Positions 15,388-21,082 of a stretch of DNA of 37,302 bases are shown here, one piece after another. The notes under the pieces are model-generated. The model had not been told where the DNA came from and did no database searches. It saw only the letters and a program-made list of their open reading frames with translations. Position numbers and translations under genes: made by a program. Positions within the stretch are counted from its first letter, which is position 1. Each line of letters begins with the position of its first letter. Source of the DNA: Sulfuricurvum sp. (GTDB lineage Bacteria; Campylobacterota; Campylobacteria; Campylobacterales; Sulfurimonadaceae); contig JAUYSQ010000039.1 of assembly GCA_030696285.1 (NCBI GenBank), positions 1-37,302 on the forward strand. Reading direction: 5' to 3'.

Positions 15388-15419
15388 CTAATCCTCCACT
15401 AACACTTGTGTGCGATAAT
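15388..15419 (+). promoter_or_regulatory. Operator/promoter P1: 11-bp direct repeat plus -10
   Basis: Half-sites CTAATCCTC (15388) and CTAACACTT (15399) lie exactly 11 bp apart, followed by six bases and GATAAT (15414-15419). The same geometry occurs at P2 and P3. The placement over the -35 position is typical of OmpR/PhoB-type activators. It drives the small secreted proteins at 15447 and probably 15796. Confidence 0.75.
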
Positions 15420-15446
15420 AACACTATCAAAACACAAGGAGACACC

Positions 15447-15752
15447 ATGAAAACGATCAATCTTGTCGCTCTTTTGAGCGTAATCACTTTTTCAGCAATA
15501 GCAGAGGAAACGCCTCTTATGACACAAACCCAAAATCAAGGGCAGTCTACGAGAATTGAACAACAAGCAGAGCGTCAAAACATGCAAACCAATATGAACG
15601 AAAACAAGTTAGGCGAGCAAGTAGGGACAGGTTCACAGAATCGAATCCGAACACATAAACGTATCCATACACATGCACAAGATGGTAGTGGCGGTGGACA
15701 AAATATGGGTAGCGGCATGCAAGGCGGCGGTATGAAGCGTGGCGGACGATAA
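15447..15752 (+). CDS. Small secreted Gln/Met/Gly-rich protein (paralogue 1)
   Basis: A 101-residue precursor with a signal peptide (MKTINLVALLSVITFSAIA, cut near AIA-EE). The mature part is hydrophilic: Gln/Thr-rich, then ERQNMQTNMNENKLGEQVGTG and SQNRIRTHKRIHTHAQ, ending in a Gly/Met-rich tail (GSGMQGGGMKRGGR). The His, Met and Lys content would suit metal or polyanion binding, but no known domain is recognised. AAGGAGA seven bases before ATG 15447 fixes this start over the in-frame ATG at 15408, which lies inside the operator. It shares the pattern ERQ-x3-Q-x-NM-x2-NK-x-G with the next gene and is related to 19241-19573. It is probably co-transcribed with 15796. Confidence 0.8.
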   Translation: MKTINLVALLSVITFSAIAEETPLMTQTQNQGQSTRIEQQAERQNMQTNMNENKLGEQVGTGSQNRIRTHKRIHTHAQDGSGGGQNMGSGMQGGGMKRGGR

Positions 15753-15795
15753 ACTATCCGCTCCTGCTAATACTCTAAAATACAAAGGAAATACC

Positions 15796-16140
15796 ATGAA
15801 AACGATTAAACTTATCGCTCTTTGGAGCTTAGTTGCCCTTAACGGATTCGCAACGGATTATAACACTATGACAATGACTGAACTGCAAGCAATGCGCGGA
15901 ACTATATCCGAAGCGGAACGGGCTCCTTATGAAGCCGAAATGCAAAGCAGAGTTCAAGCAATAACAACACAAGAAGAGCGCCAAGCATTTCAAGCGAATA
16001 TGCAACAAAATAAAGGTGGGTTAGAAGGCACAACGAGTTCACAAACTCAACCACAACCACAAGCGCGTACACAAATGCAACTGCAAACTCAAATGCAAAC
16101 GCAACAACGAACGCGTATGACAAGCGGTCAAACGCGCTAA
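15796..16140 (+). CDS. Small secreted Gln-rich protein (paralogue 2)
   Basis: A 114-residue precursor. The signal peptide MKTIKLIALWSLVALNGFA is nearly a copy of that in the upstream gene. The mature N-terminal half is helical (MTMTELQAMRGTISEAERAP and ITTQEERQAFQANMQQNKGG), loosely like the LTxxQ helices of Spy/CpxP periplasmic proteins. The C-terminal half is almost only Gln, Thr, Arg and Met. AAAGGAAATACC precedes the ATG. The 43-bp gap to paralogue 1 contains one half-site-like CTAATACTC but not the full operator, so read-through from P1 is likely. Function unknown; a periplasmic chaperone or metal-binding role is only a hypothesis. Confidence 0.8.
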   Translation: MKTIKLIALWSLVALNGFATDYNTMTMTELQAMRGTISEAERAPYEAEMQSRVQAITTQEERQAFQANMQQNKGGLEGTTSSQTQPQPQARTQMQLQTQMQTQQRTRMTSGQTR

Positions 16141-16145
16141 AGCCA

Positions 16146-16161
16146 TGAGGGATCTCCCTCA
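16146..16161 (+). terminator. Possible weak terminator after the small-protein pair
   Basis: TGAGGG-atct-CCCTCA forms a 6-bp stem directly after the stop of the second small protein. The T-run (TTTTTTTT) comes about 20 bases later rather than immediately, so this is a weak intrinsic terminator at best. Confidence 0.35.
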
Positions 16162-16207
16162 AACACCTCTGTTTTGTAGACTTTTTTTTCTTCTTCACAA
16201 CACCATG

Positions 16208-16239
16208 CTAACACTTCACTAACACTTCTATATTACAAT
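16208..16239 (+). promoter_or_regulatory. Operator/promoter P2: perfect 11-bp direct repeat plus -10
   Basis: Two identical half-sites CTAACACTT at 16208 and 16219 (11-bp phase), six bases, then TACAAT at 16234-16239. It lies 32 bp before the DUF2202 lipoprotein ATG. This is the best-conserved of the three operators. Confidence 0.78.
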
Positions 16240-16271
16240 GATTCCAATTTACCAAAGAAAAGAGGAATATA

Positions 16272-17480
16272 ATGAAGTTCTCAAAAGAAATAATCTCTCT
16301 CTCACTTGCAGTATCTGCAGCAGTTTGGCTGATAGGGTGTGGAGGGGGTGATGATACTGTCACCTCAACTGCGCCAGCCGAAACAACGATCACAGTGAGC
16401 GGAACAGTCGCCGATGGATATCTCGTGGGGGCAAAAGTATGTTTGGATAAAAACTTCAATGATCTCTGTGATGCGGATGAACCGACGGCAATTACCGATG
16501 CGAGCGGTAAATACACCTTTATTCTTAACGAAATGGCAGTGACAGAGTTTCCCCTGATCGTCGAAGCCAATGCCAGTACCATTGATTTGGATACCCATAC
16601 GCCGATCGGTCAAGAATGGCATTTTAAAGCTGTAGCCGGAAAGGGTAGTTTTATCTCTCCTCTGACAACATTGGTTGCGCGTGATATGGATTTGAATACC
16701 TCATTGACGCTCACACAAGCGATGAGCAATCTTCAAAATGATTTGGGGCTGGATATCAATACCTCGGTCGACTATGTGGCAGCTGGTAATGTAAGAGCGC
16801 ACAATGCCGCCCAAATTATCGCTCGCTCGTTAGCGGTAGCCGAAACGAACTTGACGGCTGCAGCATTAATGAATACAAATGAGAACCTGATACGCCTTCT
16901 GGCCGCCAAACAGGTTCGTTCTCAAAGTGCCGCTATAAAAGCGGCGGCTGATCTCAATAATACTGCATTTCTTTGTGATGTCAATACAACTGATGTTCCT
17001 ACACAAATTACCGAACTAACGATTGCCTTAGAAGTCACATTGTCATCGCAGCTTCAAGCGGACTTACTCTTTATGTGGGAAGAAGAGAGATTGGCGCGCG
17101 ATGTTTACAATACAATGTACGCCAAATGGGGTTCTAAAATTTTCACCAATATTGCTACCAATGGGGAGCAAACCCATATCAACAGTATCAAATCAATGAT
17201 CGACAAATATGAAGTATCAACGACAGGGTATTCCCAGCCGGCGATCGTCGGAGTTTTCGTCAATCAAGATCTTCAAAGACTGTACGATATCCTAATAGTA
17301 AAAGGGAACAAATCCCTGATTGACGCGTATGAGGTGGGGCAGCTCATCGAGATTACCGACATAGAAGATTTGGATAAACGATTGCTTCCAACAGATTTAC
17401 CGGCTGATATTCGTGCGGTTTATGAGAGCTTACGCAAGGGGAGTGAAAGCCATCTTGCAGCATTTAATAAGCAACTCTAA
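16272..17480 (+). CDS. Lipoprotein with surface-type beta domain and C-terminal DUF2202 ferritin-like domain
   Basis: 402 residues. A lipoprotein signal ends in LIGC with Cys23 as the lipidation site. Residues 43-83 (SGTVADGYLVGAKVCLDKN, then DADEPTAITDASGKYTF) form a carboxypeptidase-regulatory or SdrD-like beta domain often seen in cell-surface proteins. A helical linker covers about 125-240. The C-terminal 140 residues are DUF2202: LLFMWEEERLARDVYNTMY, NGEQTHINSIKSMIDKYEV and GSESHLAAFNKQL, with Glu and His placed as in ferritin-like four-helix diiron proteins. The biochemical role of DUF2202 is not established; metal or redox chemistry at the envelope is inferred. A GAGGAA ribosome site precedes the ATG. 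It is controlled by operator P2 and followed by a two-component pair. Confidence 0.85.
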   Translation: MKFSKEIISLSLAVSAAVWLIGCGGGDDTVTSTAPAETTITVSGTVADGYLVGAKVCLDKNFNDLCDADEPTAITDASGKYTFILNEMAVTEFPLIVEANASTIDLDTHTPIGQEWHFKAVAGKGSFISPLTTLVARDMDLNTSLTLTQAMSNLQNDLGLDINTSVDYVAAGNVRAHNAAQIIARSLAVAETNLTAAALMNTNENLIRLLAAKQVRSQSAAIKAAADLNNTAFLCDVNTTDVPTQITELTIALEVTLSSQLQADLLFMWEEERLARDVYNTMYAKWGSKIFTNIATNGEQTHINSIKSMIDKYEVSTTGYSQPAIVGVFVNQDLQRLYDILIVKGNKSLIDAYEVGQLIEITDIEDLDKRLLPTDLPADIRAVYESLRKGSESHLAAFNKQL

Positions 17481-17522
17481 AAAAATAGTCTATAATATAT
17501 TTTAATCACAAAGGGGGAGTCT

Positions 17523-18155
17523 TTGAAAATTTTATTACTCGAAGATGACCTCCTCCTTGGCGAAACCCTCGAAGAGCTACTCAACGATGCTCATTACGAT
17601 GTCCATTGGGTCAAAGACGGTGAAGAGGCGGCTGAAGCAACCTTTGACACCCCCTATGATCTTTATATTTTAGACATTAATGTTCCCAAAATCAATGGAC
17701 TCAAACTGCTCGAAGAGTTACGGGAAGCAGGCGATGATACACGGGTTATATTTATCAGTGCGCTGAGCGATATTGCCTCGATCTCCAAAGGATTTCATTT
17801 GGGTGCAGAGGATTATCTCAAAAAACCATTTTTCCCGGAAGAATTGCTCGTACGTATTGATGCAAAATTTACCAAATCCCAAAAAATCATCCAACATGGA
17901 GAGATTACGTTTAATCCCCAAAACAATGAAGTGCACAAAGAAGGTCAGCTCATTACTCTCGGAGACGTTCAGCTTCCCATGTTACGGCTCTTTATCCAAA
18001 ACATCGGTAAAACACTTCTAAAAGAGGATCTCTTTGATCTGATGGAACACCCAAGCGACAGCGCACTGCGTGTCGCCATCAACAAACTTAAAAATACGAC
18101 AAATTGGGAAATTCAAAACATACGCTCTGTGGGATATCGTCTTGAAACACGCTGA
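17523..18155 (+). CDS. OmpR-family response regulator (pair 1)
   Basis: 210 residues. Receiver domain 1-118 with the acidic pocket at Glu7-Asp9, phospho-acceptor Asp51 (YILDINVP), Ser79 and Lys101 (KKPF). The C-terminal winged helix (about 125-210) ends in the usual VGYRLETR wing. The start is TTG with a strong GGGGGAG site seven bases upstream; there is no nearby ATG alternative that keeps the receiver intact. CTATAATATA upstream is a probable promoter, so the regulator can be expressed apart from the lipoprotein gene. It overlaps its kinase by 14 bp. It is a good candidate for binding P1-P3, but regulator 2 cannot be excluded. Confidence 0.93.
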   Translation: MKILLLEDDLLLGETLEELLNDAHYDVHWVKDGEEAAEATFDTPYDLYILDINVPKINGLKLLEELREAGDDTRVIFISALSDIASISKGFHLGAEDYLKKPFFPEELLVRIDAKFTKSQKIIQHGEITFNPQNNEVHKEGQLITLGDVQLPMLRLFIQNIGKTLLKEDLFDLMEHPSDSALRVAINKLKNTTNWEIQNIRSVGYRLETR

Positions 18156-19194
18156 AACAGAGTCCTTTAGAAAAAGTTTTTTGGTTTTTTTTATTGCCTT
18201 ATCTCTTTTAAGTGCCTTAGTTTTTTGGTTTGAATACAGTCAAAAACGTCATGCTCTCGAAGAGGCTGTTTTCAATGAGATGAAGGTGTGCAGTTTTGAT
18301 CTCAAATGCCAACAATTCACCTTTGATTTTGCACCTTTACACACCGCTACACTTTATATGCTCAATCAGGATGAGACCGGATATTATGCTCTTTTCTCCA
18401 TTCCCAGCAGTAAGTATGCTCTTAAGCTTCATCTCTCACAGGAGCGTTTCGATATTATGCTGCATCAAACACGCAATACACTCCTTCAAGCTTTCTTGAT
18501 TACCCTCTTCTTTTTAGGAGTGATCTCCGCCCTTTTCTCACTCTATACGCTCCATCCATTGAGAAAAGCATTGCGTTTAACCGAAGAGTTTAGTCGTGAT
18601 ATTCTCCATGATTTCAATACACCGCTTTCCAGCCTACGGCTGAATGTCAGTCTCCTAAACGTCTCCCCCAGTGAAGCCAAAAAAATCCAGCGGATTGAGC
18701 GAAGCATTGAGACGATGATTTCACTGGGGAACAATTTACGCAGTTATCTCGAAGGGCATCCTCTTCAAAAAGAGAGCATCGATTTACACACACTCCTCAA
18801 AGAACGCATCGCTAATATTCAAAAACTTTATCCCACTATTTCTTTTATGCTTGATGATGCTGATTTATCTATTAACGCTAACCACGATGCTATCGTCCGA
18901 ATACTCGATAATCTTTTGAGCAATGCAGCCAAATACAACAAAGAAAACGGTTCCGTATGGATTTATATCAATTCGCAGGCCAAAACACTTCATATCGACG
19001 ACAACGGTAAAGGGATTGAACATCCTGACAGAATATTTGACCGTTTTTATAAAGAGCATGATCGAGGATTAGGGATCGGCTTGCATATCGTCAAAAAACT
19101 GTGCGATGAGCTCAAAATACCCATCCATGTCAAAAGTGTTTTACATCAAGGAGCCAGGTTTACACTCGATCTGCACGCGCTAACATTTCACTAA
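18142..19194 (+). CDS. Sensor histidine kinase (pair 1)
   Basis: 350 residues from TTG 18142, which lies in the end of the regulator gene; starting earlier only adds residues read from the regulator's DNA-binding part. TM1 about 13-30, a short periplasmic loop of roughly 80 residues with a Cys pair (CSFDLKC, Cys50 and Cys56), TM2 about 114-136. The phospho-acceptor His156 is in ILHDFNTPLSSL, an H-box variant. ATP-binding boxes: ILDNLLSNAAKYN (N), IDDNGKGIE (G1), FDRFYKEHDRGLGIGLHIVKKL (F/G2). No separate HAMP is obvious. The Cys pair could sense redox state or metals; this is inference. Its stop codon lies inside operator P3. Confidence 0.92.
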   Translation: MKHAETESFRKSFLVFFIALSLLSALVFWFEYSQKRHALEEAVFNEMKVCSFDLKCQQFTFDFAPLHTATLYMLNQDETGYYALFSIPSSKYALKLHLSQERFDIMLHQTRNTLLQAFLITLFFLGVISALFSLYTLHPLRKALRLTEEFSRDILHDFNTPLSSLRLNVSLLNVSPSEAKKIQRIERSIETMISLGNNLRSYLEGHPLQKESIDLHTLLKERIANIQKLYPTISFMLDDADLSINANHDAIVRILDNLLSNAAKYNKENGSVWIYINSQAKTLHIDDNGKGIEHPDRIFDRFYKEHDRGLGIGLHIVKKLCDELKIPIHVKSVLHQGARFTLDLHALTFH

Positions 19195-19211
19195 TACTTC
19201 TAAGCTATTAT
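19180..19211 (+). promoter_or_regulatory. Operator/promoter P3: 11-bp direct repeat plus -10
   Basis: Half-sites CTAACATTT (19180) and CTAATACTT (19191) lie 11 bp apart, followed by six bases and TATTAT (19206-19211), identical in geometry to P1 and P2. The kinase stop codon TAA (19192-19194) is embedded in the second half-site. It drives the third small secreted protein and the barrel gene. Confidence 0.75.
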
Positions 19212-19240: not shown

Positions 19241-19573
19241 ATGAGATTATTACCCCTTATTTTTACAACTACATTCCTTGTGGGTAGTGTGTATGGTGAT
19301 GTTTCTATGGATGCGCAAATTGAACAAATTATGAATGCACCTGCAAATGAGCGTGTAGGGCTTATGAACCAACTTAAAACCAAACTTGCCGGTATGAATG
19401 AAAGTGAGAGAAATGAAGCGTTGCAAAAGCTTCAAAATGGAATGGGCCGAGGAATGGGTAAAGGTTCACAAAATCATCTCTCCCCTATGCCGATGCAGCA
19501 CATGAAGGCAAGCGGTTCAGCTCAACGCCAAATGAATACCCATACTCAGCCTAATTTTTCCAATCGGCACTAA
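19241..19573 (+). CDS. Small secreted Met/Gln-rich protein (paralogue 3)
   Basis: A 110-residue precursor with signal peptide MRLLPLIFTTTFLVGSVYG. The mature part has helices MDAQIEQIMNAPANERVGLM and LAGMNESERNEALQKLQ, then a Met/Gly/His-rich tail (GMGRGMGKGSQN, MPMQHMK). The ER...LQ...GKGSQN segment aligns with ERQ...NK...GTGSQN of paralogues 1 and 2, so all three belong to one family of exported helical proteins with low-complexity tails. GAAGGATA precedes the ATG. Eleven bases separate it from the outer-membrane barrel gene, so both are probably on the P3 transcript. Function unknown; the Met/His tail would suit copper or other soft metals, not shown. Confidence 0.82.
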   Translation: MRLLPLIFTTTFLVGSVYGDVSMDAQIEQIMNAPANERVGLMNQLKTKLAGMNESERNEALQKLQNGMGRGMGKGSQNHLSPMPMQHMKASGSAQRQMNTHTQPNFSNRH

Positions 19574-19584
19574 GGATAGCGCAT

Positions 19585-20397
19585 TTGAAATCACTACTTT
19601 GTCTCTTGCTATTGGGTGTTCTTCATGCGCAAGGTGCAAATGATGCTGATTTTGATGGAGTGGATGACGCAATAGACAAATGCCCAAATACCCCTTTTAG
19701 TGATCTCGCTGATGCTTATGGATGTACCACACGGACGCTTTATACCCAAACTTCCTACGATATCATCATGGGGGTTAATTTCTCTAACCTGAATGCCAAT
19801 ACCTTGGAAGATACGAAAACCTCCACTACTACCTTTCAAGCTGATATGTATCACGGTAATCTTTCAGCACAACTTCTCACCTCCTATTTTAAGTCTGATG
19901 AGAGTACGTATAGCGATAGAGGATGGAATGACACGCACGTTAGCCTCTTTTACACTGCCAAGCCAATCGAAGAGTTAATCATTCAAACAGGAATTGGAGT
20001 TCTTTATCCCACCTACTCTACGGGATACGACAATGAAGCGATCGATTATCGCGGCAGTGTTACCTTGCAATACAATTTCAATGCGCAAGTCAATCTTATC
20101 GGAGGATACAACTATACCTTTATCAATGATACCGATATTGCTAACATCGCCAGCTACCAAAATACCAATGCTTTTTATGGCGGAATAGGGTATATGAGTC
20201 CTAATACTACCTCTATCCATCTCTCTTACGCCCATTCACAGAGCATCTACTCTGGAGTTGATCCTATCGAAACCCTCTCACTTGCTACTTTTATCCCTGT
20301 CAATACCCAGTGGTTTGTTTTGGGAGATTATAAATACGGTCTTAGTGATACGGCCAGTGATCATGAAGTGGCTCTCCGTGTAGGGTACGCTTTTTAA
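19585..20397 (+). CDS. Outer-membrane beta-barrel protein with thrombospondin type 3-like calcium repeat
   Basis: 270 residues from TTG 19585, which has AAGGATA upstream; no ATG lies near. Signal peptide (MKSLLCLLLLGVLHAQG), then one DADFDGVDDAIDKCPNTP repeat with paired Cys (CPNTP...YGCTT), as in OmpA-like and other calcium-binding surface proteins. From residue about 55 there are alternating amphipathic strands rich in Tyr, Asn and Thr, closing with VALRVGYAF, the terminal aromatic expected for insertion by the BAM machinery. There is no OmpA peptidoglycan-binding domain. It may be a small porin-like or adhesin-like barrel. It is co-transcribed with the third small secreted protein and is therefore likely part of the same envelope response. 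Confidence 0.82.
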   Translation: MKSLLCLLLLGVLHAQGANDADFDGVDDAIDKCPNTPFSDLADAYGCTTRTLYTQTSYDIIMGVNFSNLNANTLEDTKTSTTTFQADMYHGNLSAQLLTSYFKSDESTYSDRGWNDTHVSLFYTAKPIEELIIQTGIGVLYPTYSTGYDNEAIDYRGSVTLQYNFNAQVNLIGGYNYTFINDTDIANIASYQNTNAFYGGIGYMSPNTTSIHLSYAHSQSIYSGVDPIETLSLATFIPVNTQWFVLGDYKYGLSDTASDHEVALRVGYAF

Positions 20398-20413: not shown

Positions 20414-21082
20414 ATGATTAAAGCCAAACTCCTCCTCCTTGAAGATGATCCCAACCTCTCTGAGAGTGTGAGCGAATATCTCGAGGAGTGCGGATATGAG
20501 GTGGTATGCAGGTACGATGCCGCATCGGCCGAAGACGTACTGTATGAGCAAAAGTTCGATCTCCTTCTCCTGGATGTAAATGTCCCTGACGGAGATGGAT
20601 TTTCACTGCTAAAAAACTCTCGTCGTGAGGGAACCACTACCCCTGCCATCTTTATCACATCCCGAAATGCTATGGATGATGTAGAAGAAGGGTTTACGAG
20701 CGGCGGGGATGATTACCTGCGCAAACCCTTTGCTCTTAAAGAGTTATTGCTGCGGATCCAAACGATTTTAAAGCGCAATTTTTATCATCCTCCCACAGAA
20801 TCACTTGATTTAGGAGAGGGTATCACTTATGATACCATCAATCAGATTTTAACCATAAAAGGGGTAGTCCAGCCCCTTCAACTCAAAGAGCATAAACTTC
20901 TCAAACTTTTTTTACAGCATAAAGGAGAGCTTCTTACTCACGAAGTCATCATGGAATATCTATGGGACTATGAAGAGACCCCCAGTGACGGCTCGCTTCG
21001 AACCTATATCAAAACACTTCGTAAATTACTGGGAGGTGAGCGTATTGTCAGCCACAAACGCCTCGGGTATCAATTCCGCTAA
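20414..21082 (+). CDS. OmpR-family response regulator (pair 2)
   Basis: 222 residues. The receiver has Glu10-Asp12, phospho-acceptor Asp54 (LLLDVNVPDGDG), Thr in FITSRNA and Lys in LRKPF. The C-terminal winged helix ends with the VSHKRLGYQFR wing. It is clearly homologous to regulator 1 but not a recent copy. The ATG lies six bases after TATAAT with no ribosome site, so a leaderless mRNA is expected. The kinase gene begins within the last 38 bases of this gene. No copy of the P1-P3 operator lies upstream, so this pair is probably not autoregulated through that site. Confidence 0.93.
   Translation: MIKAKLLLLEDDPNLSESVSEYLEECGYEVVCRYDAASAEDVLYEQKFDLLLLDVNVPDGDGFSLLKNSRREGTTTPAIFITSRNAMDDVEEGFTSGGDDYLRKPFALKELLLRIQTILKRNFYHPPTESLDLGEGITYDTINQILTIKGVVQPLQLKEHKLLKLFLQHKGELLTHEVIMEYLWDYEETPSDGSLRTYIKTLRKLLGGERIVSHKRLGYQFR

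Follow-up and report, generated by a model that had tools for sequence, protein, structure and literature searches.

A conserved tandem-repeat promoter module in Sulfuricurvum and its probable control by an adjacent two-component system

Genes and promoter modules at the locus

The locus lies in a 37,302-nucleotide stretch of Sulfuricurvum sp. DNA (contig JAUYSQ010000039.1), here called the window. Its features, including three promoter modules (P1-P3) and a two-component system (RR1 and HK1), are as follows; a second OmpR-type regulator, RR2, is encoded at 20414.

15388..15419, forward: P1, half-sites 15388-15396 and 15399-15407, 6 nt, -10 hexamer GATAAT at 15414-15419 with a preceding TGn
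15447..15752, forward: small secreted protein 1, first gene behind P1
15796..16140, forward: small secreted DUF1104 protein, second gene behind P1
16208..16239, forward: P2, half-sites 16208-16216 and 16219-16227, 6 nt, -10 hexamer TACAAT at 16234-16239
16272..17480, forward: DUF2202 (ferritin-like) lipoprotein, Pfam DUF2202 E = 4.5e-37
17523..18155, forward: RR1, OmpR/PhoB-type response regulator (Response_reg E = 1.7e-25, weak Trans_reg_C), the proposed operator binder
18139..19194, forward: HK1, cognate membrane histidine kinase (HisKA and HATPase_c), directly downstream of RR1
19180..19211, forward: P3, half-sites 19180-19188 and 19191-19199, 6 nt, -10 hexamer TATTAT at 19206-19211
19241..19573, forward: small secreted protein 3, a helical domain followed by a Met/His/Gln-rich tail
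19585..20397, forward: secreted, outer-membrane-like protein with a thrombospondin-3-like stretch, co-directional behind P3

Direct reading of the letters gave CTAATCCTC-ca-CTAACACTT-gtgtgc-GATAAT for P1, CTAACACTT-ca-CTAACACTT-ctatat-TACAAT for P2 and CTAACATTT-ca-CTAATACTT-ctaagc-TATTAT for P3. Each module consists of two CTAAYRCTT half-sites with an 11-bp period, followed by exactly 6 nt and a -10 hexamer, which is the layout described in the original prediction. P3 overlaps HK1, with half-site 1 falling within the 3' end of that gene and the HK1 stop codon within half-site 2. We conclude that P1-P3 are real modules composed of a predicted binding site and a promoter, and that the predicted operator is CRCTAAYRCTT-CRCTAAYRCTT-N6-TAnnnT.

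The original prediction had also placed the tandem sites over the -35 region. This is true of half-site 1, whose letters 4-9 occupy the -35 position (with a 17-nt spacer) and bear no likeness to TTGACA, but half-site 2 sits in the spacer between -35 and -10. A sigma-70 scan found nothing resembling a -35 at either P1 or P2, and the idea that these two are conventional sigma-70 promoters carrying a -35 box was rejected on this ground.

Small secreted protein 1 matched no Pfam family, and the DUF1104 protein is the sole DUF1104 match of the genome. Profile comparison with hhalign matched DUF1104 to small protein 3 with 91.6% probability (E = 8e-7). Small secreted proteins do stand behind the operator, but the earlier description of them as paralogues has to be reduced to this remote relation. 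The DUF2202 lipoprotein has a solved relative, MJ0754 (3q4n). A PDB sequence search with the small proteins returned HP0721 (2xrh) for DUF1104 and otherwise low-complexity or chance matches, and a fold search with small protein 3 gave no significant match, its model being poor (pLDDT 59). A literature search returned no papers on DUF2202 and three on DUF1104; among the matches listed, the operator string occurred only in unrelated papers.

Frequency, conservation and target genes of the module

Shuffled windows are expected to contain 0 matches to the strict pattern. In the 2.39-Mb genome, the half-site pattern matched four times on the forward strand and never on the reverse strand, compared with 1+1 matches for the reversed control, so its frequency is not random. 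Three of the four matches are P1, P2 and P3. The fourth, on contig C129, is followed by 6 nt and TATAGT and lies upstream of a secreted glycine-zipper gene. A held-out matrix, built from 20 sites of other genomes and no window sites, scored P2 at 42.2, P1 at 40.2 and P3 at 36.0 bits; the next position in the window reached 8.8 bits, and the best score among 60 random Markov windows was 15.2 bits.

We compared 20 orthologous or homologous regulator loci. Same-gene orthologous sites are present in 15 other Sulfuricurvum genomes, so that the operator is kept upstream of orthologous genes in related strains. It stands ahead of small protein 1/DUF1104, ahead of the DUF2202 lipoprotein where this is present, and at the kinase stop ahead of small protein 3. 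Orthologues of P1 were found in loci L035, L037-L040 and L042-L048, and those of P3 in Sulfuricurvum loci as well as in other genera. Sulfurimonas, Hydrogenimonas, Sulfurospirillum and other MAGs have the operator too, together with RR1 homologs that are about 45-65% identical, and an order-wide sample had related sites in 18 of 81 Campylobacterales genera.

The geometry of the module is fixed. A scan with the 22 half-site columns alone over 509 kb of regulator loci gave 60 unique sites, and in 56 of them a -10-like hexamer (xAxxxT with at least four of six matches to TATAAT) stood at exactly +6, while the next best offset had 8. The exceptions are mostly the upstream registers of multi-unit arrays. 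Such arrays keep the 11-bp register, with four units at L050 and three at L187, and both end with the 6-nt gap. The whole 32-bp unit is conserved as a block that includes the -10, an ordinary TAnnnT often accompanied by TGn. Sequence comparisons thus establish the module, its conservation and geometry and, as set out below, its targets and its link to RR1, and they place it across related Campylobacterota.

The shared operator upstream of small secreted proteins and the DUF2202 lipoprotein was thus borne out, but the regulon proved not to be local. Five sites are supported in this genome (the training cis sites of the genome-scan model include the window's own P1-P3), of which at least two lie outside the locus: C129, ahead of the glycine-zipper operon, and C116, ahead of a second DUF2202 gene. 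Matches on C232 and C223 were only partial and were not counted. Both DUF2202 genes and the single DUF1104 gene of the genome stand behind the operator. De novo trans sites precede genes of the same families, namely DUF2202 (G000, G012, G035, G021), DUF1104 (G018) and glycine-zipper proteins (G000, G008). In G021, G012 and G035, the locus lacks the lipoprotein, yet a free-standing DUF2202 gene elsewhere bears the operator. Of the sites in the order-wide scan, about half were upstream of genes for small protein 3, DUF1104 or DUF2202; a simple heuristic gave signal-peptide-like starts for most of the proteins encoded downstream. Some order-level sites (L224, L230) were upstream of unrelated genes.

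In two genomes (L180/L181 in G002 and G013), the operator lies upstream of genes for a short secreted peptide and for a protein like TonB-dependent receptors, a context that suggests a link to metal uptake. A site with the same geometry, TTAACACTT-ca-TTAACATTA-gtatgc-AACAAT, lies upstream of a secreted HMA (heavy-metal-associated) domain protein (G000:C140:10688-10718, minus strand, L203); its regulator may be a paralogous one whose half-site is TTAAC. At L053 and L054 (G026, G029), which encode an RR1 homolog of 46-47% identity, sites with CTAAT/TTAAT half-sites occur directly downstream of the kinase and recur 2.4 kb farther along, so that these genomes seem to have a paralogous regulon.

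RR1 and HK1 as the candidate regulatory pair

The original prediction had named the regulators at 17523 (RR1) and 20414 (RR2) as candidates, based on an OmpR/PhoB-type operator layout. The layout found support, and the ambiguity between the two regulators was removed, since the motif tracks RR1 only. Co-occurrence was analysed in 41 Sulfuricurvum genomes, with RR1 orthologs defined by at least 61% identity and the motif by E < 1e-3. The motif was found in all 16 genomes with an RR1 ortholog and in 2 of the 25 without (Fisher p = 1.5e-9). These two are incomplete MAGs: in G060 the contig stops just past the DUF2202 gene, and G018, with two good sites but no RR1 ortholog found, is 83% complete. 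Since the motif tracks RR1, while RR2 is about equally common with or without the motif and unlinked to it in several motif-bearing genomes, we propose RR1 as the binder. Its receiver domain has the conserved phospho-acceptor Asp, residues D8, D9, D51 and K101 being invariant in 16 orthologs. The C-terminal domain matched Trans_reg_C at E = 5.4e-4 and 20.4 bits, which is under the Pfam cut-off of 26.2, and NCBIfam matches of RR1 to QseB, PmrA and others extend through the C-terminus. The adjacency of RR1 and HK1 is conserved in orthologs.

From this comparative evidence, P1-P3 are in all likelihood activator-dependent promoters of one two-component regulon run by RR1-HK1, and RR1 with its kinase very probably switches on small secreted proteins of unknown function. 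HK1 would sense a periplasmic condition and phosphorylate RR1. RR1 would then bind as a head-to-tail dimer to the tandem 11-bp CRCTAAYRCTT repeats on one face of the DNA, covering the site of the missing -35. From there it would contact RNA polymerase at a set distance, since 6 nt separate the end of half-site 2 from a -10 that often carries a TGn extension, and raise the expression of DUF1104, small protein 3, Gly/Met/His-rich peptides, DUF2202 proteins and the glycine-zipper operon. RR1-HK1 may itself be transcribed by read-through from P2 (and P1), resulting in positive autoregulation. Such autoregulation is suggested by the operators directly upstream of RR1 itself in L103 and L107; in addition, no convincing terminator was found from the DUF2202 stop to HK1.

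RR1 could also bind the operator and mainly repress, blocking polymerase at the -35/-10 region, and the position of half-site 2 within the promoter spacer would suit a repressor as well. However, P1 and P2 have no -35 match and a rigid gap to the -10, as expected for polymerase contact, and PhoB-type class II sites are positioned similarly to the half-sites of P1-P3. We regard repression as unlikely and infer activation.

Binding by RR2, or by RR1 and RR2 together, is highly improbable. RR2 is OmpR-type and matches Trans_reg_C better than RR1 does (54.6 bits), and its gene is adjacent in the closest relatives; however, 19 of 23 Sulfuricurvum genomes that lack the motif have an RR2 ortholog, as do 16 of 18 motif-bearing ones (own genome counted), showing no association (p = 0.68), and in G004, G011, G012, G015, G025 and G035 the gene lies away from the motif locus. 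That the motif is the core promoter of an alternative sigma factor is scarcely credible: the 32-bp unit is indeed conserved as one block with its -10, but this -10 is of the ordinary type, two to four units can follow one another in 11-bp register, and their presence tracks a response regulator.

The periplasmic part of HK1 contains the sequence CSFDLKC, whose Cys pair (C40/C46) is nearly invariant among orthologs, although some of the distant homologs, such as those at L053, L109 and L115, have lost it. The sensor was modelled with a pLDDT of 90 as a short periplasmic domain with two long helices around a four-stranded sheet. A fold search with this model gave no significant structural match, and a PDB sequence search with the sensor returned nothing convincing. 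As the targets include small proteins rich in Met and His, the signal could plausibly be a metal, redox or envelope-stress cue. More tentatively, RR1-HK1 might be an undescribed Campylobacterota-wide envelope-stress system, in which HK1 would sense the periplasmic redox or metal state via CSFDLKC and drive uncharacterised protective DUF1104, small-3 and DUF2202 proteins, and of which DccRS of Campylobacter jejuni would be a diverged branch with a changed half-site; we consider this possible but doubtful. In such an envelope-stress reading, RR1-HK1 driving DUF1104, small protein 3 and DUF2202 can be likened to CpxAR driving CpxP/Spy.

The results provide a precise predicted operator and a candidate regulator for conserved uncharacterised envelope proteins of sulfur-oxidising Campylobacterota, a group with few known transcription-factor sites, and the operator is a handle for assigning a condition to DUF1104 and DUF2202.

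Comparison with known systems

E. coli PhoB shares tandem direct repeats of 11-bp period with the system described here, but its box is unlike the P1-P3 operator in sequence. OmpR/PhoB regulators bind as tandem dimers on direct repeats, and Mycobacterium tuberculosis PhoP also occupies three- and four-unit arrays (PMC4832192). PhoP resembles the system described here in its 11-bp-period direct repeats, its head-to-tail dimer (predicted in the case of RR1) and the extension to three or four units (PMC4832192), but differs in its 7-bp TCACAGC motif, 4-bp spacer and targets. Helicobacter pylori CrdRS, an OmpR-type system reported for copper and nitrosative stress (PMC9449129), is, by this description, comparable to RR1-HK1, itself a putative Campylobacterota stress system.

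C. jejuni DccRS (Cj1223c-Cj1222c) controls a small regulon of putative periplasmic or membrane proteins and dccR itself (PMC7118207, PMC9449129). Like RR1-HK1 as proposed here, it combines an OmpR-like regulator and its own kinase with a small periplasmic-protein regulon that includes the regulator. The DccR box is WTTCAC-N6-TTCACW, and we take the f11 genomes of our sample to be Campylobacter and their TTCAC box to be that of DccR. Among the listed TTCAC-N6-TTCAC matches of family f11, 22 of 53 (counted by hand) share one of 13 allowed -10 distances, which corresponds to N10-TAnnnT. At loci L263-L278, such TTCAC-N6-TTCAC-N10-TAnnnT promoters lie upstream of PepSY-like, HlyD-like and Met/Lys-rich peptide genes and probably represent the DccR regulon.

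The spacing of these promoters is the same as that of CTAAC-N6-CTAAC-N10-TAnnnT in the P1-P3 operator, whereas the half-site is TTCAC instead of CTAAY-RCTT. Most of the inspected genes behind the f11 sites encode PepSY-like secreted or HlyD-like membrane-fusion proteins, in contrast to DUF1104, DUF2202, small protein 3 and glycine-zipper proteins here. The best match of RR1 in an f11 genome (G046) has 38% identity, and the genome of the window has no TTCAC-pattern match with a -10 in forward or reverse orientation. The window system was rejected as DccRS itself because its sites read CTAAY-N6-CTAAY and not TTCAC. The comparison suggests that half-site specificity has changed while the 11-bp/10-nt geometry was kept. 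By analogy, the RR1 system would work like DccRS, the closest known system by design.
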